Of a stretch of 64,000 nucleotides of DNA, positions 1,594 through 55,724 are shown piece by piece (the stretch's first letter is position 1; each line of letters opens with the position of its first letter). The DNA lies in IMG/VR virus record IMGVR_UViG_3300029787_000018, positions 1 to 64,000 of that record. One strand, given 5' to 3'. Under the pieces are notes generated by a model, which saw only the letters and a program-made list of their open reading frames with translations, made no database searches and was not told where the DNA came from. This DNA is from a virus. Both the position numbers and the translations under genes were made by a program.

Positions 1594-3276
1594 TTATTCT
1601 TCTGATTTTCCTACGAATCCTGTTATAGATGTTCTGGTTGACATTAATGTTGAAGCTACCGATATAGCACTCTTTAAAGAGTTTACGGTAATCTTTTTAG
1701 GGTCGAATATTTTAGCATCGAAAATATTTACAACTTCTTCCGTACGAACGTTGTACATTTCTTTGAAATTTGTTGTCAAAAGTTTGTTCCTGTAAGCTTC
1801 TACGCTCTTACCTGAGTTTTCGATAATCTTTTCAAATGGAGCAAAGCATGATGCTAGAATAGTATCATAGCCTTTTATGTAATCCGCATCTTTCTGCAGA
1901 TGGTCAACATCTTTTTGCTTTAATGCATCAAGCTTGTAACAGCTTTCGTATAAAGCTACACCACCACCTTTGACAACACCTTCTGCCAATGCTCCTTTTA
2001 CGGCATTAACGGCATCATCTACACGTGCATGTATTTCCTCTGCTTCCACGGGTGTTTCGGCACCTACGAATATAATGGAAATACTTCCCATTAACTTTGC
2101 TTTACGCTGCATAAGTTTGTCTTGCATGTAACCGCTTTCCTCTTCCTCTATAAGCTCGTCAAGGTAATTGATTCTCTGTTGAAGCTTGTCCTTGTCGTAC
2201 TGACCGTTAATAATGGAATATTGATCACGCTTGATATGCATTTCCGCTCGGCCAAGGATTTCATCTGGATCAAGTGTGTTCGCATCTTGCAATTCTTGGA
2301 ACTCACTTTTTAGGACTGCTCTACCACCTGTGTAGATAGCCATTTCATTGGCTACGTAGCTTGCCTGTACTCCAAATTCCGGTAGCTTCAATGCTATAAT
2401 CTGCATACGCTTGCCGTTTTCGTCCACTAGCTTGGCCATATTCTCGAACATCAAATGCAAAGCTTTTACATTAATGTCCGGAGCAATGATAATAAGCGGG
2501 TATCTCGTTTCTTCGTTTTTGAAACTGTTCCATACATGGGTCATTACGGAACTGATTTCGGATAATGAATTTATCTCGTGATCGGTAATGAACAGCTTTG
2601 AGTTCTTTAATACGATTTCGTTGGTAACGCCTAAAGCTTCTAAGAAAAAATCGTGGTGCACGCTATTATAGTGAATCATACCTTCCATGTTCTCTACATA
2701 GCATTCGCTACCTCTGGCCTGGTTTATCTTGATAGGGTTTTTGCCCTTGGAATGTTTGAGCGCTTCCAGAACCAAAGACGATATCATTTTATCGTTGTTA
2801 GATGATATGAACGCTACATTCTCCATAATATCCAAACCTATTTCAGTTTCTAGGTCTATTTGAATACTATCGGCTTCCAAGAATTTGGTAATATCGTTCA
2901 GTGCATCTGTCATTCCTTGTTTGGCTTTTGCCCAACTGGTATGCTCTTCAAATTCCAATATCGTTTCCAATATTACTTTAGCCAATAAAGTTGCTGTAGT
3001 AGTTCCGTCACCGGATTGGGATTGCGCTCGGTTCGCCACTTGTTTCAATATCTGCGCTCCCTGATTTCTTATAGGGTTTCCAAGCTTTATATGCCTGGCA
3101 ACAGTAACACCGTCTTTCGTAACCAAAGGATCGTCGTTCGGTCTATCGATAATAACGGTATATCCGCTAGGACCCATTGTATCTACTACAGCTTCAGCAA
3201 GCTCTATAGCTCCCTGAATCATTTGTTTTTGGATATCCCATCCACGTTTTATTTTAGTGTAAGAAACGTTTTCCAT
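1594..3276 (-). CDS. groEL: GroEL-like 60-kDa chaperonin
   Basis: 560 residues, close to the ~548 of bacterial GroEL. The ATPase signatures are in place: KDGVTVA (residues 54-60, Asp55), SGDGTTTAT (88-96, Asp90) and RVDDA followed by EGVVKGGG near residue 420, which carries the third catalytic Asp region. The apical and intermediate regions align only loosely with cellular GroEL, and the C-terminus ends in FVGKSEE instead of the Gly-Gly-Met tail that lines the bacterial cavity. A GroES-like gene ends exactly where this one starts, so the two are coupled. Known family role: ATP-driven folding in a double-ring cavity. Inferred client: phage capsid or other virion proteins, as for other phage chaperonins. 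An intact ATPase suggests a working enzyme, not a decayed copy. Confidence 0.93.
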   Translation of the reverse strand: MENVSYTKIKRGWDIQKQMIQGAIELAEAVVDTMGPSGYTVIIDRPNDDPLVTKDGVTVARHIKLGNPIRNQGAQILKQVANRAQSQSGDGTTTATLLAKVILETILEFEEHTSWAKAKQGMTDALNDITKFLEADSIQIDLETEIGLDIMENVAFISSNNDKMISSLVLEALKHSKGKNPIKINQARGSECYVENMEGMIHYNSVHHDFFLEALGVTNEIVLKNSKLFITDHEINSLSEISSVMTHVWNSFKNEETRYPLIIIAPDINVKALHLMFENMAKLVDENGKRMQIIALKLPEFGVQASYVANEMAIYTGGRAVLKSEFQELQDANTLDPDEILGRAEMHIKRDQYSIINGQYDKDKLQQRINYLDELIEEEESGYMQDKLMQRKAKLMGSISIIFVGAETPVEAEEIHARVDDAVNAVKGALAEGVVKGGGVALYESCYKLDALKQKDVDHLQKDADYIKGYDTILASCFAPFEKIIENSGKSVEAYRNKLLTTNFKEMYNVRTEEVVNIFDAKIFDPKKITVNSLKSAISVASTLMSTRTSITGFVGKSEE

Positions 3277-3638: not shown

Positions 3639-3861
3639 TTCTTAAATTATTTACTTCATCAAAACAATCTCTACCGTTTTCGTCTAAACCCGATTCATCT
3701 ATAACACCGCTCCACATATGCCTAAAATATTCGACACCGTTCATTTCTCTTGGGTCTTTGGATTCTACCCAAATACCGTTATGGTACTCCATAGGTACGG
3801 ATATCTTATCCCATTTGGCAGAAAAAAACATACCTGTATGCTTTTTGAATATTACGCTCAA
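3622..3861 (-). CDS. Small hypothetical protein
   Basis: 79 residues, mixed charge, Trp/Tyr/His-rich (SAKWDKISV, YHNGIWVES, YFRHMWSG). No motif recognised. It overlaps the GroES-like gene by 17 nt and the upstream WDGH gene by 4 nt, which fits an operon with coupled translation. The coding frame is the only open one with phage-like composition here. Function unknown. Confidence 0.65.
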   Translation of the reverse strand: MSVIFKKHTGMFFSAKWDKISVPMEYHNGIWVESKDPREMNGVEYFRHMWSGVIDESGLDENGRDCFDEVNNLRNGKRL

Positions 3862-4328
3862 AGCATATTTTTTAAACGACTTAACACATCTTGCGGAGTA
3901 TGTCCGTCAAATTCGTATTTGGCTTTTATTACTGCAGGAACTTTAAATTTTTTCCAATCCTTTGCCTTGTAATGATTCGTTACCTGGCCATCAGGTGTTA
4001 TAGCAACTACAATAAACCACGTGTGCTTGCTTTCTGAAAAACATTTTTCTCCGTCATGATGCCGCCACGATTTATGTACATCGTATACACCTTGCTTTGC
4101 CCATTCATTAAACAACAACGCCTGTAGAACCAATCGGAACTCATAAAGCTCTTCAAAGGTATGGTACCCATCACTGATTTTGTTCTCTTCAAAATCATCA
4201 TGGTTTTTCTTGCCATGGTCAATGATGCTTTGAACCCACTCTAAATGCTCTTTTCCATTATACCCCATATCGGTTCTTCTTTCAAAAACAGTTTCTACGG
4301 TTTTTTTTAATTTACTTAGACTTAACAT
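3858..4328 (-). CDS. WDGH-type phage protein
   Basis: 156 residues. From about residue 50 it follows a pattern I recall as the phage WDGH family: SDGYHTFEELYEFR, then a W-x-(S/R)-HHDG segment, WFIVVAITPDGQVTNHY, and near the end the hallmark FDGHTPQDVLSRL (Trp replaced by Phe). The N-terminal ~50 residues are a helical extension. The family is widespread in phages of Firmicutes and Bacteroidetes; its biochemical role is not known to me. Overlaps both neighbours by a few nucleotides. Confidence 0.75.
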   Translation of the reverse strand: MLSLSKLKKTVETVFERRTDMGYNGKEHLEWVQSIIDHGKKNHDDFEENKISDGYHTFEELYEFRLVLQALLFNEWAKQGVYDVHKSWRHHDGEKCFSESKHTWFIVVAITPDGQVTNHYKAKDWKKFKVPAVIKAKYEFDGHTPQDVLSRLKNML

Positions 4329-4509: not shown

Positions 4510-4520
4510 TTCACAAAATT

Positions 4521-4547
4521 AAAAAAGCCTCGGGGGAAACGGCTTTT
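4521..4547 (-). terminator. Intrinsic terminator after the RyR gene
   Basis: Read on the - strand: AAAAGCC, a ~11-nt loop, GGC followed by TTTTTT. The GCC/GGC stem is short but flanked by A/T runs that extend pairing. It lies just downstream of the RyR-domain gene and could separate it from the chaperonin unit. Confidence 0.55.
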
Positions 4548-4554
4548 GTTAATA

Positions 4555-5190
4555 CTACATTTTCAATCCGTCAGCAGTCGGAGCTATTTTATTGTTCTCA
4601 GGCTTATAGCTATCTGGATAAGGATTAGGCTCATTCAATCTTTTTAAATCCATACCTAACCACATGATACTTTCTTGAAGCTTAGTAGTTGCTAATGAAC
4701 GCTCTCTTGAACGACCTAGCTTTTTAAGATTCTGCAATTCTTTATCCAATGACACACGAAGCAATTTGTCACATCTTACATCGTGGTTTACCAAGGAATT
4801 ATCATCCTCCATAGAGATTTTGAACTCGAACGGGTCTACTTTTGGCAACATTGCCGTACAAATAGCAACGAACAGTTCGTCCTTTACCTTCTGGAACTCC
4901 GGAAGTTCATCGAAAGAAACGATACAAGGATGCGTTTTAGCCTCGGCATCCTTTACCTCTCCATAAATCCAACCGTCATTAACTTTGTCTTCCATCCAGG
5001 CATTGTGCTGTGCATCTTTTCCAGCATAAGGATTGGCAAATCTGAACTTAACACCATTGATAGCACTTTCCCTTTGCCATGACTCGGCTTCGTCCCAAGG
5101 CTTTTGTGAATCGTCTCCGTTAATAATGCACCATTGTCTGTTGGCTTCATGACAAGCCATTGCAATAAAAATGAAATTTTCATTTTCCAT
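4555..5190 (-). CDS. RyR-domain protein with Acb2-like C-terminal hairpin
   Basis: 211 residues with two parts. Residues ~10-112 match the RyR repeat domain: HEANRQWC, PWDEAESWQRESAINGV, a W-x-x-x-K-x-x-DGWxYG segment, and KTHPCIVSFDELP. RyR domains occur in ryanodine receptors and in many phage and bacterial proteins, where nucleotide-type ligand binding has been proposed. Residues ~135-185 form a helical hairpin with SRERSLATTKLQESIMW (161-177), which closely resembles the 'SRE-x-SLA-x-TKLEEA-x-MW' motif I recall from Acb2/Vs.4 anti-CBASS sponges. Residues 186-211 are a Pro-rich tail. The joint architecture suggests a protein that binds nucleotide signals; this is inference. It is flanked by terminators, so it may be its own unit. 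Confidence 0.8.
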   Translation of the reverse strand: MENENFIFIAMACHEANRQWCIINGDDSQKPWDEAESWQRESAINGVKFRFANPYAGKDAQHNAWMEDKVNDGWIYGEVKDAEAKTHPCIVSFDELPEFQKVKDELFVAICTAMLPKVDPFEFKISMEDDNSLVNHDVRCDKLLRVSLDKELQNLKKLGRSRERSLATTKLQESIMWLGMDLKRLNEPNPYPDSYKPENNKIAPTADGLKM

Positions 5191-5261
5191 AATCTAATCT
5201 GTTTTGCGGTTATAATAATAATCTGCAGTAAATATACATATACTTTTAAACTATCCAAATA

Positions 5262-5295
5262 AAAAAAGCTACAGGAACTCCCCGTAGCTTTTTTC
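5262..5295. terminator. Bidirectional stem-loop terminator
   Basis: AAAAAAGCTAC, a short loop, then GTAGCTTTTTT. The near-perfect 11-bp symmetry with A and T runs works as an intrinsic terminator on either strand. On the - strand it lies between the 74-residue gene (ends 5374) and the RyR gene (starts 5190). Confidence 0.75.
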
Positions 5296-16340: not shown

Positions 16341-18863
16341 ATGCAAGAAACGATTGATTGGGGTAGCGACATAGCTATCCAAAGAAATCCTGTTTCTGTA
16401 GATTTACCTATTTTACAACCTGGCCAAGTTCATAATGTAGAAATGATCGAGGCTAGGTTTGAAATAGGTAAAGGTCGTATGATTACCGACGGAACAGGAA
16501 CCGGAAAAACGTATACGGGTTTAGGTGTAGCTAAAAGATTTTCTTTGTTGGGCAAAAATAAACAGCTCATAGTTACGCCTACGGACGATAAATGTAAAGA
16601 TTGGATATTAGAAGGAAACCGCGTCAATCTTTTTATAACACAATTAAAAGATAGCAATGACATGGGTAGAGGCATTAGAACCACTACCTATGCAAACTTT
16701 TATCAAAATCAAGCATTACTACGTGAAGAATTCGATTTGATTATATATGATGAAAGTCATTATATAATGCAAAACGCAGCAGGAAAAGAAACATCATGTT
16801 TCGATCAACATAAATTGATATGTTCCCTTCCTTCTGTATTTGAAAAGCGTGGTGCTTATTTTATAGGTAGAAGACCTTTTACTATCAATAGCCCTAGTGA
16901 GGCAACACCAGAAAAAATCCAAGCGAATAAGATTTGGCAAAAGCGCTGTTACGACAAAGGCCTGGAGCTTTATCACAAGACCAAGGTTTTGTTTATGAGT
17001 GCTACTCCTTTTGCATATGTCAAGAACATTAAATATTGTGATGGACTAATGTGGGATATAGAGGAACGCCTAAACGAGGAACTTCATCCTCATGTTGGTT
17101 ACGGTCAACCTACTAGGTGGGAGAAATTTTTGATTGATAATTTCGGCTATCAAATGAAGAACGGTAAGCTTCAAAAACCTGACGTAGAAGTGGACACTTC
17201 TATATTGGAACGTGATTTCTTTGAAAGAGCCAAAGAGAAAAATCTAATGTCAACAAGAGTTCTCGAACTTGATGTTGATTACTCTAGGCACTTTATTAAA
17301 GTAGATACGGAACTAGGATTGAAAATCGATGAATTCTTTAGCTTGCTATGGAATATCAACGATGTTAAAATGTCCGAGATAAGGTTTATATTCAAAAGAC
17401 ATTTCAACCATATCTTTACTTCTAAGATGGTTGAATCGGCTAAAGCAGAGAACCTTTTTGACCGTATCGACACACATTTGATGCTAGGTAGGAAAATAGT
17501 TATTTTTCATGGATATAATAACATAGATATTACGCATCCATTTAGAATAGATAACTGCAGAAAGTATCTTGACAAAGATGAACGTTGGCGTGAACATAGT
17601 CTGAATAGATTATTGGAACAGTTCTATGAAGCATACCCTGAGTATGCAAATTATGATGTAAGTCATTTAAGAAGTGTACCGGAAATAATCAAGGGCAGGT
17701 ATAAAAAACGTTGTGTTCTTTATAACGGAACTATAGGAAAACCTAAGCGTAGAAGAGATAAAGACACTTTTATGGACGATGATAGCGATGTAGATATAAT
17801 CGTTATTCAGTCACAAGCGGGTCAAGCTGGAATATCCTTGCACGACCTTACAGGTTTCAGACCGCGGGTGTCAATAGATATGTCGTTACCTACCAGGCCA
17901 CCGGAAGCTATTCAGAAAGAAGGTAGGACTTATAGATGGGGAAGTTTATCTAATGCCATTTATGAGTACCCTACACTGCAAACGGCTATGGAGCGTATGG
18001 TATTTGCATATACTATTGCCGAGCGCACAAGAACCGTGGAGAATTTAGCGATGGGTAATCTTGCTAGAGATTTAGAGTCCGCCTTTAAGAACGGATACGA
18101 AAATTTCGAGGAAGGATTGCCCAATATTGGACAAGGCAGATTAGGTAAAGCAGAAGATAAAAAACTGACGGCACCTATATCTCCTTTCCAAAAATCCATT
18201 ACTTACTACTATCAAAAGCAAAAGGCAAATAAAAAAAGGAACAAAGCTTTACATACCGATTTCTTTGCTACTCCCGAGCCTATTGCGTTTAAGATGGTGG
18301 AATGGGCTAATGACAATGAAAATATGGTATGGCTTGACCCTAGTTGTGGTGATGGTGCCATTGCCAGATTTTTCCCCGATAACACAAAACGAATCGCTAT
18401 TGATGTAGATGCAAAGCTTTTGTCGTTATGTAAACTTAAAGCCAATGTAGATGCCAAACACATGGATTTTATAGAATATAAAATCAATAACAAGGCTGAT
18501 AGGATAATCATGAATCCACCTTTTGGCTATGGTGGTAAAACAGCTATAGAGCATTTGCTGAAAGCATTGATACATTTACGTAAAGATAAAGGCAACGCTA
18601 AACTTTATTGTATCATACCTAGAGGTTCTAGTTGTGAAAAACATTTTGAAAGAATGTCGGAGAGCGCAAATATGAAGTTCTTCAACTATACCGGTGAAAT
18701 ACTTTTACCGAAGTGTACTTTTAATAGGGCTGCAACTTCTGTAGCTACTAGAATCGTAAGATTTGAAGGAACGCACATAGCACAACATTTCCGTTCCATT
18801 GACTTAACCTATGTAGAGAACAACAAACAGTTGTTTGAAGTGTTTGAACATTTAGAATTTTAG
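16341..18863 (+). CDS. SF2 helicase fused to N6-adenine methyltransferase
   Basis: 840 residues. Helicase motifs: Walker A GTGTGKT (51-57), DESH box (137-140), SATP (220-223), and a late region with QAGQAGISLHDLTG and EAIQKEGRTYRWG as motifs V and VI. From about residue 635 a methyltransferase follows: DPSCGDGA (666-673, SAM-binding motif I) and NPPF (725-728, catalytic motif of amino-methyltransferases). The order helicase-then-methylase in one chain recalls strawberry-notch and DarB-like phage proteins. Expected role: ATP-driven DNA translocation with adenine methylation, either for replication or to protect phage DNA from restriction. The separate roles of the two halves are inferred. First gene of the replication block. 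Confidence 0.9.
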   Translation: MQETIDWGSDIAIQRNPVSVDLPILQPGQVHNVEMIEARFEIGKGRMITDGTGTGKTYTGLGVAKRFSLLGKNKQLIVTPTDDKCKDWILEGNRVNLFITQLKDSNDMGRGIRTTTYANFYQNQALLREEFDLIIYDESHYIMQNAAGKETSCFDQHKLICSLPSVFEKRGAYFIGRRPFTINSPSEATPEKIQANKIWQKRCYDKGLELYHKTKVLFMSATPFAYVKNIKYCDGLMWDIEERLNEELHPHVGYGQPTRWEKFLIDNFGYQMKNGKLQKPDVEVDTSILERDFFERAKEKNLMSTRVLELDVDYSRHFIKVDTELGLKIDEFFSLLWNINDVKMSEIRFIFKRHFNHIFTSKMVESAKAENLFDRIDTHLMLGRKIVIFHGYNNIDITHPFRIDNCRKYLDKDERWREHSLNRLLEQFYEAYPEYANYDVSHLRSVPEIIKGRYKKRCVLYNGTIGKPKRRRDKDTFMDDDSDVDIIVIQSQAGQAGISLHDLTGFRPRVSIDMSLPTRPPEAIQKEGRTYRWGSLSNAIYEYPTLQTAMERMVFAYTIAERTRTVENLAMGNLARDLESAFKNGYENFEEGLPNIGQGRLGKAEDKKLTAPISPFQKSITYYYQKQKANKKRNKALHTDFFATPEPIAFKMVEWANDNENMVWLDPSCGDGAIARFFPDNTKRIAIDVDAKLLSLCKLKANVDAKHMDFIEYKINNKADRIIMNPPFGYGGKTAIEHLLKALIHLRKDKGNAKLYCIIPRGSSCEKHFERMSESANMKFFNYTGEILLPKCTFNRAATSVATRIVRFEGTHIAQHFRSIDLTYVENNKQLFEVFEHLEF

Positions 18864-50513: not shown

Positions 50514-51066
50514 AATTCGGGTTGTAAGTTTTTTGTTGTTTGCCGTAAACATTGCTCTGTGCTTGTGATACTTGACGTCCTTGCATCAAATAATAGGAAC
50601 GTTTTCTTTCATCTTTTGTAGATGCCAACATATCCTCGTACTCCTTATTTTCTTTTTCAAGACGTATCTTTTTATCTTTATTGGAATCGATTATACCAGC
50701 GCCTAAACCTAATGCCCCTCCTATAGCCGCACCCCATGGACCACCTACTTTCATACCCAATGAAGCACCTTTTAAAGTAGAACCCATTGTTTGTGCCTTG
50801 CTTTCTGCAGTACTGCTGGATACGCTTTGAAAATTAGCATATTGCTCTGCGCCAAAATTCATGATATCCCCTGCAGACGCTAATGCGTTCGCTCCTATAT
50901 CCATTTTAGGTTTGGCACCAACGGAATTTGGCGTAGGAATATCAACACCATTTTCTAGTATAGGTGCGTTTATATCTATTTTTTCAAGCTTTACCGGGTT
51001 AACAGGCATTGTAGGCATGTATTGATTTACCGGTAAAGGTTCTCCTGTATATGGGTTTATTTTCAT
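50506..51066 (-). CDS. Small internal virion protein with Gly-rich hydrophobic segment
   Basis: 186 residues. Pro-rich start (NPYTGEPLPVNQYMPTMP), then a Gly/Ala-rich hydrophobic stretch (SLGMKVGGPWGAAIGGALGL) and a charged helical tail. Size, hydrophobic centre and order before two large ejection proteins match T7 gp14 (outer-membrane pore of the ejection channel). The analogy is inference; there is no sequence proof. Confidence 0.65.
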   Translation of the reverse strand: MKINPYTGEPLPVNQYMPTMPVNPVKLEKIDINAPILENGVDIPTPNSVGAKPKMDIGANALASAGDIMNFGAEQYANFQSVSSSTAESKAQTMGSTLKGASLGMKVGGPWGAAIGGALGLGAGIIDSNKDKKIRLEKENKEYEDMLASTKDERKRSYYLMQGRQVSQAQSNVYGKQQKTYNPNYG

Positions 51067-54000
51067 TATTGATAGCTTAGACGTATGTAATTTACAACAC
51101 GATTTAGTTTTCTCAAAGTTCCTTCGTTATATGGGAACACAAATTCAAACAGCGCCCACTCCGACCTAACATCTTTTTTCTCGTCGGAATCGGCATCACT
51201 GTTGGCGTAGTTCAATGTAGGTATAGTATGCTTTCCTTCTCTTTTTTTATAGCGTTTATGCGTTGGTAAAAGTTGTCTTACATGACCTTCTTTTGTGGTT
51301 ATCGTAATACTTTCAAAATCAGTAAAGTCGTTCATTACCCAAGCCAAATGAGGGAATATAAATGTTTCGTCCGCATCTGGGGAGCAAATGAAACTTATTT
51401 TCATTTTAAGTTCTTTTTCAAGAACGTTCAAATATAATCCTTTGTTCAGTTCATGTAATGACTGTGAGTTAGGTCTTTCGATATCGTTTACGGTAACGAT
51501 TGTTTCTCTAGGTATATATATTTTTCCGTCAAAAGGCATATATATACTTGAATTCATTTCTCTCCAACCACTGAACAACCCTAAAGGTTCATTGTACATT
51601 ATCATAGAATTACCGGTATCGGTAACAATATTCAAACAGGTTTCTTTGAACTCTTCGTCAAAAAATCCGTTTACATCTATAATATTTTCGGTATTCAGTT
51701 TATTGTAAAAATCATGATGGTACTGATTCTTTAATGTAATCTCTTCAAAATTCTTTATGATTACTTTTTTAGTATCATCTATGAACATAAAACCAAAATC
51801 CGGATGCTTTGATAGAGAGCGTCTAATGGACGTTCCATAGCTTGATACTACTTCGTATCCTGAAATAGATTTGCCGCTACTCTGTGCAACATTTATAGTC
51901 TGTCCTTGCTCGGAAGGAATCATTATGTTACGGTCAACGTACAATAACGATGTTTGATGTTCCTGTACAGCGAATAGATCGTTTTTAATTTTGGCGGCAT
52001 TGAGAACAGCGCCTTTGTTCTTATCAAGTTCTTGGAACTCGTTGACCGGAAACGAAGACCAGGCATCATAATATTCTCCCGATAATTTTGTTTCGGATGC
52101 AGATACAATATTATCCATATTTGGATCGTCCTGATACCTATAAGGTTTTACTATATATTTTTTGTAATTGTTTTTATGAAGATAGGCTGAATTGATTACC
52201 TCGTTTTTAGTAATTGCAAAATCTATAGCCGTAGTTTCTCTATAAAACTCATACTCATAGTTAAGCTTAGGTTCTACCATTGTCTCTACGACAAATGCAT
52301 AGCACCAAGCACCGTTTAGTTTTTTTACATCTTCTAAATCACCTCTAGCACTAGCGTCTTTGGTTCTACCATTATTAAGGTTTCTGTCTATACGTTCCTG
52401 AGCTTCGTCTCCATGGCTGTTTTTAGTACGTGCCCATAATGTTACATAAGTGTCTCCCTCAATATTGAATACTTGTGCGCCATTAGTGTTTTTTTCTATA
52501 GGCTTTGTTTCCGATAAAGGAATAAAGGTATTGTTGCTGAACGCTTGACTGCTTCTACCGCCATATATAGAATCTTCGTTATCGCGTTCTATATTGATAA
52601 GGGCATAGCTATCGTACCAATTAAAACTACTTTCACCTCTACGTATCTGTGTAGGAAAGGTAGTAGGATTGGCACTACCTAAGAAAGAATCTGTAAATAA
52701 ATTATCCTCGGACTTTATGAACAAGGTCTTTTCGCCTATAGAAAGACTACCACCTCTAGGTAATGCTTCAAATCCATATTGGTCTCTTTCAAATCTGATT
52801 TTTCTAACTTCATTAGAATACCACCAAGGCATAGATGGTAAACAAAAAGCGTTATTGGATATTTCAAAATTAGTACCTAGGTCAGAACCGGGAACGACTT
52901 CACCTCGGCCAAGTGAAATTCCTTCTTTTATATCATGTTCTTGGTCCATCAGTGTATAATTTGAAAATACCGATACATTTACAAAATGCGTTTGCCAAGT
53001 ACTGTTGTTTGTAATTCTATCATCACCTACAAGCTTAGGTAAATCGGATATTATAGAAGGAGTGTTAAGCTCTTCCCTTAATATTTTTCTTGAAAATTTA
53101 GGAAAAGTCTCCAATGGAAATGCACCGAAGCTTTCACCAGAAGTCATTAATGCATTTTTAGAGTGATCGGTATTCAACCTACCTACTACGTGTAGTTTTG
53201 AATTGAGCACAAGACTATCGCTTACTTCTCCATATACAAGGTCTGGACAATCGAAATAAAATAATTTCCTATTGTTTATTACACGCTGTTCATATTCGTA
53301 GTTAGGATTATCATAATCTTCACCGTTATCATCATATTGATCAAAACCCTCTTTATCGAATAATGGTCCACCGTGGTATGGTAATATCCATTTTCTTTGT
53401 AGTTTTTCATCTAAGCCATAACCTGCAAAATTAACAGGGTCTTGCAATCTCATTAATGGTGCTGATATACCTTGGCATATTACACCTCTATTGTTTTCGT
53501 CTCGTTCTACGAACAATATTTGGTAAGAATCAAATTGCTTGCTGAAATTACAATCGAATCTTGTTTCGATATGCATTTCTACACGTACACCATAAAGACT
53601 GTTATTGACAACCTTTTGGTTAACGTATTGTTTAGAAGTGATTACAGCGTTACCAGAATCGTTTATGTAAGAATATGAAGTTCCAAGCTTAGGGATGTGT
53701 ACATCACCCATAGGAATAGCGAATATCGGTTCTCCATTCTGATATAACTGTATGGCCAATCTGTAGATTTCATTTTTCATGAAACCTTTTTTTAGAGTTG
53801 GTTCCGGCATATCAAGAACACTGCCATTGCCATTATACCTAGAAGTAGCTTTGTTCAAAAGCTTATCTTCTTCTAGCCTATAGCTTATACGAATACCGGT
53901 ACCTGAATTGAATCCTGCAGAAAGAGCGCCGTGAACCATTTGTTCACTGGAAAGGTTATCGGTAAAGAATACATTTTCGTCTTCTGTTTCATAAAGTACC

Positions 54001-55724
54001 TGTTCATTGGAAAACGACAAAATTATATTTGTCATATCCGTTTTAAGGTTATCGTTTACAGAATTCAACAGTATTACGTTGTCAATATATTTTATTATGA
54101 CATTAGGAAACTTATTTCCAAATTCTACATTTTGATCACTTTCGTTTTGCAATAATAACCCAATTTCTTCTGTTACGTTTTTATAGACATTGGCTTCATT
54201 TTCTATAACGTATTCATACTGTTCAGATGTTAGGGTGTTTACAAGTCTTACCGTAGTACTTCCAAAACTCCTTATTTCAGAGAATACTCTTTTCTTTGCA
54301 TAGAAAAGTTCTTCTTTGTAATTGGGTGGTATAAGGTTGTATGTTTTTGGTGACGGATTTAAAAAGCTTGAATGTGTATTACCGGCACTGTTCCATCCAT
54401 GTAAAGCGAACAAAGTCTTTAGACTATTATATTCGTTTGTAATAGGGTTGTTACGTAAACCAAAAGCAAAAAGCTTATTGTTCTTTGTTTCAAGGTCGCT
54501 GCAGTATTTCCAATTAAGTTCGTTCTGTAACGTATCGGCAAATGTAATTTCTGTAGATAAATCGGATTCATTGCCAAAATGGTCAAATTCTACAACACTT
54601 GAAACAGCTTTGATACCCAAAGACTTTACACCTGTAGGAATACCAGAAGCTTCAAATTCCAATGCTATACATTCTATTTCTGAAAATCCTGTAGGGTTTA
54701 CTATGTTGCAAGTAATTTTTACGGCTTTATTAGTAACCTCTTCCGGTTCTCCACCTTGTACCGCAACGCTGTTTTCTGGATAGATGTAATGTACTTTTGA
54801 ATAAGGGCTAAGGTTTGTTACCTGGCCATTGTCCGTAATAAGTCTATACAGATATTGAACAGCCATTGATTTAAGCTGACCATTGGTGTTTACTTCTTTG
54901 ATTCTAGGTTCTAATAACGTAGAGCTTTGAAAGTTCTCTAGTTCTTTAGGAGATCTTGTTTTTAAATCTGGGTCGTATACATTTATAGACTTAAAAGTGG
55001 TAGTAAAATCGGTATACTTTACTCTTCTGTAATTAGAGTTTTCATCCACGCCCAATGCAACAATCTTTGCATCAAGTGCCCAATTTTGATAACCTGCCCA
55101 AAGTACTTTATTTGTGAAGTTTCCGTTATCGTCTTTTGTAATTGACAATATGCAATCCGAATACAATTCATTGTTGGGCGGTATGGAACCCTCTTGAAGT
55201 TGACAAGCCGCAAAATCGTTTACGTTTACGTTTAATCTATAATAAGAGTCGTAATCTATTTCATCGTTCTCTGTTCCACTAGGGTCATAGTTATCTTCAA
55301 TGACCACTTCTGAATCAGGTGCTTTGGATGCTATCTGTTCCGTATAGGTAACAACGTTTGAGTTATCGGATATTTCATCCGTTAATGCAAAAGCCCCGCT
55401 ATTAAGTTCTACTTCAAAATCTGAAATATTGGGAACGGTTCTGTTTACACTTTCATAAATAACACCACCGATATTTATATCTATACCGGAAGCTTTTACA
55501 AACACAACAAGTTGATCATTGAAAGATGCGGCACCTAGATATTTTACTATCCTGGTATCGTTCATGATTTCTTCTGTTCCTTTTACGGAAACAAATGAAA
55601 GCATTCCATCTTTTGCGGATAAACGCCCGTTTTCACCAAATATAAAACTGTTCTTAGTTTTTAAATGGTTGTCAAGGTCGGATTTCATACCGCCATCAAA
55701 AGTATGTGTTTGTTTATTTGTCAT
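51066..55724 (-). CDS. Large tail (hub/muzzle or stabilisation) protein
   Basis: 1552 residues. The first residues THTFDGGMKSDLDNHL match the 'F-x-GGm-x-xD' start typical of phage tail stabilisation/muzzle proteins. The rest is beta-rich with many short loops (Asn/Asp/Gly), as in large tail-tip proteins; a wide region of Tyr/Phe-rich strands suggests beta-propeller-like folds. No enzyme motif. Position between fibre genes and ejection proteins agrees with a tail-tube end or muzzle role. Confidence 0.75.
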   Translation of the reverse strand: MTNKQTHTFDGGMKSDLDNHLKTKNSFIFGENGRLSAKDGMLSFVSVKGTEEIMNDTRIVKYLGAASFNDQLVVFVKASGIDINIGGVIYESVNRTVPNISDFEVELNSGAFALTDEISDNSNVVTYTEQIASKAPDSEVVIEDNYDPSGTENDEIDYDSYYRLNVNVNDFAACQLQEGSIPPNNELYSDCILSITKDDNGNFTNKVLWAGYQNWALDAKIVALGVDENSNYRRVKYTDFTTTFKSINVYDPDLKTRSPKELENFQSSTLLEPRIKEVNTNGQLKSMAVQYLYRLITDNGQVTNLSPYSKVHYIYPENSVAVQGGEPEEVTNKAVKITCNIVNPTGFSEIECIALEFEASGIPTGVKSLGIKAVSSVVEFDHFGNESDLSTEITFADTLQNELNWKYCSDLETKNNKLFAFGLRNNPITNEYNSLKTLFALHGWNSAGNTHSSFLNPSPKTYNLIPPNYKEELFYAKKRVFSEIRSFGSTTVRLVNTLTSEQYEYVIENEANVYKNVTEEIGLLLQNESDQNVEFGNKFPNVIIKYIDNVILLNSVNDNLKTDMTNIILSFSNEQVLYETEDENVFFTDNLSSEQMVHGALSAGFNSGTGIRISYRLEEDKLLNKATSRYNGNGSVLDMPEPTLKKGFMKNEIYRLAIQLYQNGEPIFAIPMGDVHIPKLGTSYSYINDSGNAVITSKQYVNQKVVNNSLYGVRVEMHIETRFDCNFSKQFDSYQILFVERDENNRGVICQGISAPLMRLQDPVNFAGYGLDEKLQRKWILPYHGGPLFDKEGFDQYDDNGEDYDNPNYEYEQRVINNRKLFYFDCPDLVYGEVSDSLVLNSKLHVVGRLNTDHSKNALMTSGESFGAFPLETFPKFSRKILREELNTPSIISDLPKLVGDDRITNNSTWQTHFVNVSVFSNYTLMDQEHDIKEGISLGRGEVVPGSDLGTNFEISNNAFCLPSMPWWYSNEVRKIRFERDQYGFEALPRGGSLSIGEKTLFIKSEDNLFTDSFLGSANPTTFPTQIRRGESSFNWYDSYALINIERDNEDSIYGGRSSQAFSNNTFIPLSETKPIEKNTNGAQVFNIEGDTYVTLWARTKNSHGDEAQERIDRNLNNGRTKDASARGDLEDVKKLNGAWCYAFVVETMVEPKLNYEYEFYRETTAIDFAITKNEVINSAYLHKNNYKKYIVKPYRYQDDPNMDNIVSASETKLSGEYYDAWSSFPVNEFQELDKNKGAVLNAAKIKNDLFAVQEHQTSLLYVDRNIMIPSEQGQTINVAQSSGKSISGYEVVSSYGTSIRRSLSKHPDFGFMFIDDTKKVIIKNFEEITLKNQYHHDFYNKLNTENIIDVNGFFDEEFKETCLNIVTDTGNSMIMYNEPLGLFSGWREMNSSIYMPFDGKIYIPRETIVTVNDIERPNSQSLHELNKGLYLNVLEKELKMKISFICSPDADETFIFPHLAWVMNDFTDFESITITTKEGHVRQLLPTHKRYKKREGKHTIPTLNYANSDADSDEKKDVRSEWALFEFVFPYNEGTLRKLNRVVNYIRLSYQ

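Follow-up and report, generated by a model that had tools for sequence, protein, structure and literature searches.

Locus and gene neighbourhood

A gene on the minus strand (4555..5190), running from an ATG start to a TAG stop, encodes a protein of 211 amino acids in which a RyR domain precedes a helical hairpin resembling those of Acb2 and Tad1; homologues of the same architecture exist, and the RyR-plus-hairpin observation of the initial annotation was confirmed. The RyR (Repeat12/RyDEP-like) domain occupies residues 7-117 (4840..5172), as placed by PF02026, PHROG 5154 and an AlphaFold (AF2) model, and is followed by a linker (residues 118-131; 4798..4839) that forms a coil of lower confidence in the model. 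Next comes the two-helix hairpin (residues 132-184, with helices at 132-157 and 162-184; 4639..4797), placed by PF24729, by the Tad1 structure 8kbb and by the model, and within it the motif SRERSLATTKLQESIMW, near-invariant across the hairpin family, whose earlier placement at residues 161-177 is exact (4660..4710). The protein ends in a family-specific conserved tail, NPYPxSYxPxxxxIxPTADGLKx (residues 185-211; 4558..4638), which is missing in T4 Vs.4 and Acb2. All of these features lie on the minus strand.

The window, meaning the whole 64 kb stretch that was analysed, forms part of an IMG/VR virus record of 77,139 bases. Judged by its genes, the source virus is an environmental phage of crAss-like or related Bacteroidota type, because a 'stabilization protein' homologue (window 51066-55724) matched crAss-like Bacteroides phages and Cellulophaga phages, and because a large packaging-type protein (L261:11315-13465) and then portal- and capsid-like proteins follow in same-strand order beyond the window, these names being given by eye and gene order and not by profile. 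The first 20 kb had no Megablast match among phage records.

The fusion gene had been described as standing alone between two terminators, which held well on one side only: the terminator-like hairpin upstream of the gene (5261..5295, minus strand) is strong (-20.1 kcal/mol, z -4.6) and leads into a U run, whereas the one just past the stop codon (4518..4553, minus strand) is weaker (-8.5 kcal/mol, z -1.85, with a U-rich 3' arm), and a consensus terminator scan listed neither of them. The interval from the upstream hairpin to the start codon holds a Bacteroidota-type promoter-like site, TTTG-N19-TATATTT (5230..5259, minus strand), a pattern with 12 matches in the window against 5.2 expected by chance, which is no evidence of function. 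Elsewhere in the window, the second gene downstream from the fusion encodes a WDGH-domain protein (3858-4328, minus strand; PF25311 6.7e-35), and a phage-encoded GroEL-like chaperonin lies upstream of the packaging genes (1594-3276, minus strand; PF00118 2.2e-41, PHROG 5725 9.9e-101). An 840-aa helicase-methyltransferase-like protein (16341-18863, plus strand) matches the middle of a far longer PHROG profile (3925 positions) and may be one piece of a giant polyvalent protein that has been split.

The RyR domain and its ligand residues

The complete RyR pattern that the initial annotation had seen at about residues 10-112 was borne out by a PF02026 match above the curated cut-off (1.2e-10, 41.9 bits against 27.4), by a PHROG 5154 match across residues 8-117 (5e-42) and by the predicted fold. 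The AlphaFold model of the whole protein, built from an 84-row alignment, had a pLDDT of 88.6; its residues 1-120 superposed on Repeat12 of human RyR3 (Z 9.8, 120 aligned, rmsd 3.0), and RyR entries were the top Foldseek matches of the whole model.

The idea that RyR domains bind nucleotide-type ligands has biochemistry behind it, as phage RyR-domain proteins (RyDEP) were described in a May 2026 preprint to degrade or sequester the Thoeris signals 2'cADPR and 3'cADPR (PMC13232231). Of eight other phage RyDEP homologues in that study, six bound 2'/3'cADPR and none cleaved it, despite high sequence conservation with RyDEP, and the two presented in detail had nanomolar affinities, defeated Thoeris in vivo and rescued phages (PMC13232231). 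When the RyDEP reference, Mycobacterium phage DyoEdafos gp78 from MN234187, was aligned with the window protein, H62 (codon 5005..5007), W65 (4996..4998), H87 (4930..4932) and D104 (4879..4881), all on the minus strand, fell at identical spacing on the catalytic H75, the adenine-stacking W78, the phosphate-binding H100 and the catalytic D117 of RyDEP respectively (roles from PMC13232231). Both histidines and the tryptophan were invariant among the 67 phage RyR domains collected, and the aspartate was present in 66 of them. The position of RyDEP Q54, one of the residues mutated in the preprint (PMC13232231), is held here by A43 (5062..5064, minus strand), and by alanine in 65 of the 67 RyR domains compared.

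With the catalytic dyad H62/D104 in place, the RyR half could be a glycosidase, a true RyDEP converting 2'/3'cADPR to ADPR, with the hairpin sequestering or concentrating signals. We regard this as improbable: high overall sequence conservation with RyDEP did not bring cleavage in any of the eight homologues, Q54 is replaced, and a casual look beside the gene, as distinct from a systematic scan, revealed no NARP1-type NAD genes. The tested homologues bind without cleaving, which favours a sponge over an enzyme, and by analogy with them the RyR half is probably a signal-binding, non-cleaving domain.

The hairpin and its relation to Acb2 and Tad1

The window protein matched PF24729 (Acb2_Tad1_hairpin) at 1.4e-4 with 22.4 bits (23.6 in a six-frame search), which is under the cut-off of 27. 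All 16 sampled members of its hairpin family matched the same profile, however, the best at 9.5e-9, and several scored above the cut-off (L013 29.5, L022 33.9, L029 29.5, L074 29.4 and the Gundel_1 protein 27.4 bits), with the RyR fusions L022, L029 and L074 passing it at full length; for this reason the resemblance of the family to PF24729 is, at sequence level, beyond chance. Comparison with the Acb2/Tad1 hairpin profile therefore came out in favour of the family and short of the threshold for the window protein itself. The divergent tail of the fusion in phage phiCB2047-B reached 34.1 bits. In a search of the PDB with the family profile, Tad1 structures came first (8kbb, 3.7e-6); we take 8kbb to be CmTad1, the entry itself reading Thoeris anti-defense 1.

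The model has the features expected of PF24729, with two antiparallel helices and the motif lying where the second begins. A Foldseek search with the hairpin alone gave nothing significant, and neither Acb2 nor Tad1 was among the structural matches listed for the full model; membership of Acb2/Tad1 is thus not confirmed by structure, and two helices are too poor in fold information for a missing match to count as evidence. Aligned by hhalign with T4 Vs.4 as a single sequence, the family gave 15 columns at a probability of 27%, too weak alone. The core TKLQE-x-x-MW is common to the hairpin family and T4 Vs.4/Acb2 (TKLKEASMW), and the initial annotation was correct in calling the motif close to that of Acb2/Vs.4.

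The likeness could also have arisen by convergence, an unrelated helical pair having acquired a similar short motif, as the match spans only about 25-35 residues, lies below the Pfam cut-off in the window protein and finds no specific structural counterpart with a two-helix model. Several relatives nevertheless exceed the curated cut-off, Tad1 chains head the PDB profile search and the motif likewise sits where the second helix begins, so that we consider convergence very improbable indeed.

R162 and E163 align with the Arg and Glu of the Tad1 motif 'SRENA/CRENA', and R162 with the Arg of 'GRWLA' in PaMx33 Acb2. The Arg that opens helix 2 (Acb2 'GRW', Tad1 'REN') is presumably a trinucleotide-binding residue, and we take R67, Y11 and K26 to be pocket residues of Acb2. 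In the alignment with Acb2, the N-terminal IKGY helix, which we take to be part of the cyclic-dinucleotide pocket of that protein, was absent from the C-terminal domain of the window protein. A review bears on the role of this helix region in the dinucleotide pocket of Acb2 (PMC12043709). The N-terminal beta-sheet domain of Tad1 was not found in the window protein, where the helical RyR domain occupies its place.

Because the IKGY helix is lacking and the family carries a nearly invariant tail of its own, we would file the hairpin within the Acb2/Tad1 hairpin superfamily, nearer to the hairpin of Tad1 (CmTad1) and not as an Acb2. The proposed homology of both halves of the protein to signal-binding families is supported, whereas the identification of the C-terminal half as Acb2 found no support.

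Distribution of the hairpin and recurrence of the fusion

Most often the hairpin is a free-standing phage protein of about 80 amino acids whose C-terminal tail hardly varies, and this implies that it does something by itself. The C-terminal domain of the window protein shares 74% identity with one such stand-alone protein, 95 amino acids long, from Tenacibaculum phage Gundel_1, and further relatives are found in Bacteroides phage BK735P4 and in crAss-like phages; a pattern-limited scan recovered at least 141 IMG/VR loci, and among genomes the family was found at 12 loci, mostly in Bacteroidota bins. At some loci (L076/L084, L085/L087 and L036; around 2780-3230, plus strand) various other short domains of about 60 amino acids are joined to the hairpin at its N-terminal side, and these are candidates for further signal-binding modules.

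Besides the window, no fewer than six viral sequences were found to have RyR fused to the hairpin (L018, L021, L022, L029, L074 and Sulfitobacter phage phiCB2047-B, where SUFG_00048 combines RyR with a divergent hairpin). It was also found on a contig from a bacterial bin (L262) with the ORF length and domain coordinates of L022, which is perhaps the same virus. The RyR proteins of Ruegeria phage DSS3phi2 and Pseudomonas phage LKA5 were considered as further fusions and rejected, the former being RyR only and the latter carrying a long tail that lacks the hairpin motif. In the hairpin tree, the window hairpin was placed beside the stand-alone protein of Gundel_1, apart from the other fusions. 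On well-supported branches the fused state had to change at least twice in the hairpin tree and at least three times in the RyR tree, both built from few columns with rough support, so the fusion or fission occurred more than once. The RyR-hairpin arrangement is a minority architecture, since the 80 best loci of the RyR scan held three hairpin fusions and one Tad2-like fusion.

That last protein, of 219 amino acids (L126:2471-3130, plus strand; IMGVR_UViG_3300031963_000147), joins RyR to a Tad2-like domain (PF11195 4.8e-23) and on its domain matches is a second kind of sponge fusion. Separate genes keep similar company. In Gundel_1 (L001:3986-4557, plus strand) the stand-alone hairpin gene QQV91429.1 is followed after 17 bases by the Tad2-like QQV91430.1 (1.5e-26), neither of them annotated as a sponge; a Tad2-like ORF adjoins the hairpin gene of L243, and another lies near the RyR gene of L140. 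In L097 (659-1655, plus strand) and L096 a hairpin gene stands directly upstream of a RyR-only gene, a pair that could be another sponge combination, the hairpin protein of L097 having an N4 gp49-like N-terminus (PF13876 4e-27). A genome-wide search of the source virus for a second sponge gene found no Tad2-like gene, and the hairpin only in the fusion gene. Recurrent combinations of RyR with hairpin and Tad2-like domains, as fusions or as pairs, are as expected if all three modules serve the same purpose, and they support an anti-signalling role.

Other neighbours point elsewhere. Stand-alone hairpin genes of crAss-like phages adjoin dUTPase and ribonucleotide reductase genes, with which a role in nucleotide metabolism would also fit, and RyR genes lie in the capsid/structural modules of LKA5 (L257:2486-3358, plus strand) and Cellulophaga phage Calle_1 (L260:2854-3333, plus strand), so that one may ask if virions carry some of the RyR proteins. 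The fusion protein might accordingly bind nucleotides or ADP-ribose in a housekeeping capacity, in nucleotide metabolism or in the virion, and have no part in anti-defence. This seems to us quite unlikely, as RyR relatives are directly anti-Thoeris (PMC13232231) and are paired with Tad2-like domains, and as the window gene has a promoter-like site of its own and lies upstream of the structural genes, not among them. Phage vB_PaeP-D14S (L259) has the LKA5-type RyR gene under the annotation 'Anti-CRISPR protein'.

A putative two-headed sponge

Acb2 and Tad1, the relatives of the hairpin, bind cyclic nucleotides and gcADPR, and their hexamers hold cyclic trinucleotides on the three-fold axis. We give even chances to the reading that the fusion protein is a two-headed sponge for immune signals, taking up cADPR isomers with one half and a second signal with the other. 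The RyR domain (residues 7-117) would bind, and probably sequester, 2'cADPR or 3'cADPR and so blunt TIR-based Thoeris defence, a ligand class suggested by the close functional precedent of RyDEP and its homologues. The hairpin and conserved tail (residues 132-211) would build an oligomer like those of Acb2 and Tad1, displaying several RyR pockets, and would also form a second pocket, likeliest for a cyclic oligonucleotide of CBASS or type III CRISPR. This pocket may correspond to the Tad1/Acb2-like trinucleotide site around R162/E163, and a cADPR isomer is a possible alternative ligand, although we infer that a cyclic oligonucleotide is probably the second signal. The binding of either ligand and the oligomeric state are likewise predictions from the relatives. 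The sub-threshold Pfam score of the window hairpin, its lack of a significant structural match and its missing Acb2 N-terminal helix count against a double sponge, as do the nucleotide-metabolism neighbours of stand-alone hairpin genes and the RyR genes in structural modules.

In the main alternative, the RyR domain alone binds 2'/3'cADPR and the hairpin merely oligomerises, lending avidity and stability. In its favour, Acb2 and Tad1 are hexamers to whose oligomerising core the hairpin contributes (PMC12043709), RyR alone suffices for anti-Thoeris activity in relatives (PMC13232231), and the N-terminal helix of the Acb2 dinucleotide pocket is missing. The hairpin, however, is mostly a protein in its own right with an almost invariant tail, and adjoins Tad2-like genes, and we hold a purely oligomerising role to be unlikely, if still first among the alternatives, the nucleotide-metabolism or virion role coming next.

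Because each half is related to signal-soaking phage proteins, one gene may disarm two alarms. It is conceivable, at somewhat less than even chances, that one protein takes up two chemically different signals in separate domains and so counters Thoeris and CBASS or type III CRISPR together; in the same joint reading, and with the same reserve, the fusion is one case of 'mix and match' between sponge domains (RyR-hairpin, RyR-Tad2), mostly in Bacteroidota phages.

A literature search for RyR domains together with Acb2, largely outside subscription papers, found no mention of the two, and the main text of the RyDEP preprint, supplement aside, mentions neither Tad1 nor such fusions (PMC13232231). 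Both halves are of described kinds, and their combination appears undescribed. One sponge fold can hold several signals, as in Tad1 and Acb2; if our reading is true, phages also stack specificities by fusing two different sponge folds, and where a RyR, hairpin or Tad2-like module is joined to an uncharacterised domain, that domain is predicted to be a new sponge. The fusion also offers a direct test of the role of the abundant stand-alone NPYP/PTADGL hairpins in crAss-like and other Bacteroidota phages.

Comparison with known systems

Among known systems, RyDEP (gp78, PDB 35TM) shares with the window protein the PF02026 domain, the spacing of H75, W78, H100 and D117 and a phage origin of the gene; it differs in being only 26% identical, in having Q54 where the window protein has Ala, and in lacking the additional C-terminal hairpin domain, the preprint having covered R12-like domains only (PMC13232231). 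Tad1 (CmTad1 8KBB, cbTad1 7UAV) is alike in the hairpin motif, CRENAMAITKLQECLMWLG against SRERSLATTKLQESIMWLG, as well as in the profile match of 3.7e-6, but its hairpin is preceded by an N-terminal beta-sheet domain where the window protein has RyR, and it is without the conserved NPYP...PTADGL tail that follows the hairpin in the window protein. With Acb2 (T4 Vs.4 7UQ2; p26 of 8H2J/8IXZ) the family has in common the TKLxEAxMW core in the second helix and joint membership of PF24729; it is set apart from Acb2 by the absence of the N-terminal IKGY helix, and from Acb2/T4 Vs.4 by its nearly invariant NPYPxSxxPxxxxIxPTADGLKL tail. The phiCB2047-B fusion likewise places a sponge domain behind an N-terminal RyR domain, its hairpin being divergent, shorter and without the tail, and the L126 protein joins an N-terminal RyR domain to a known sponge domain, with a Tad2-like domain in place of the hairpin.
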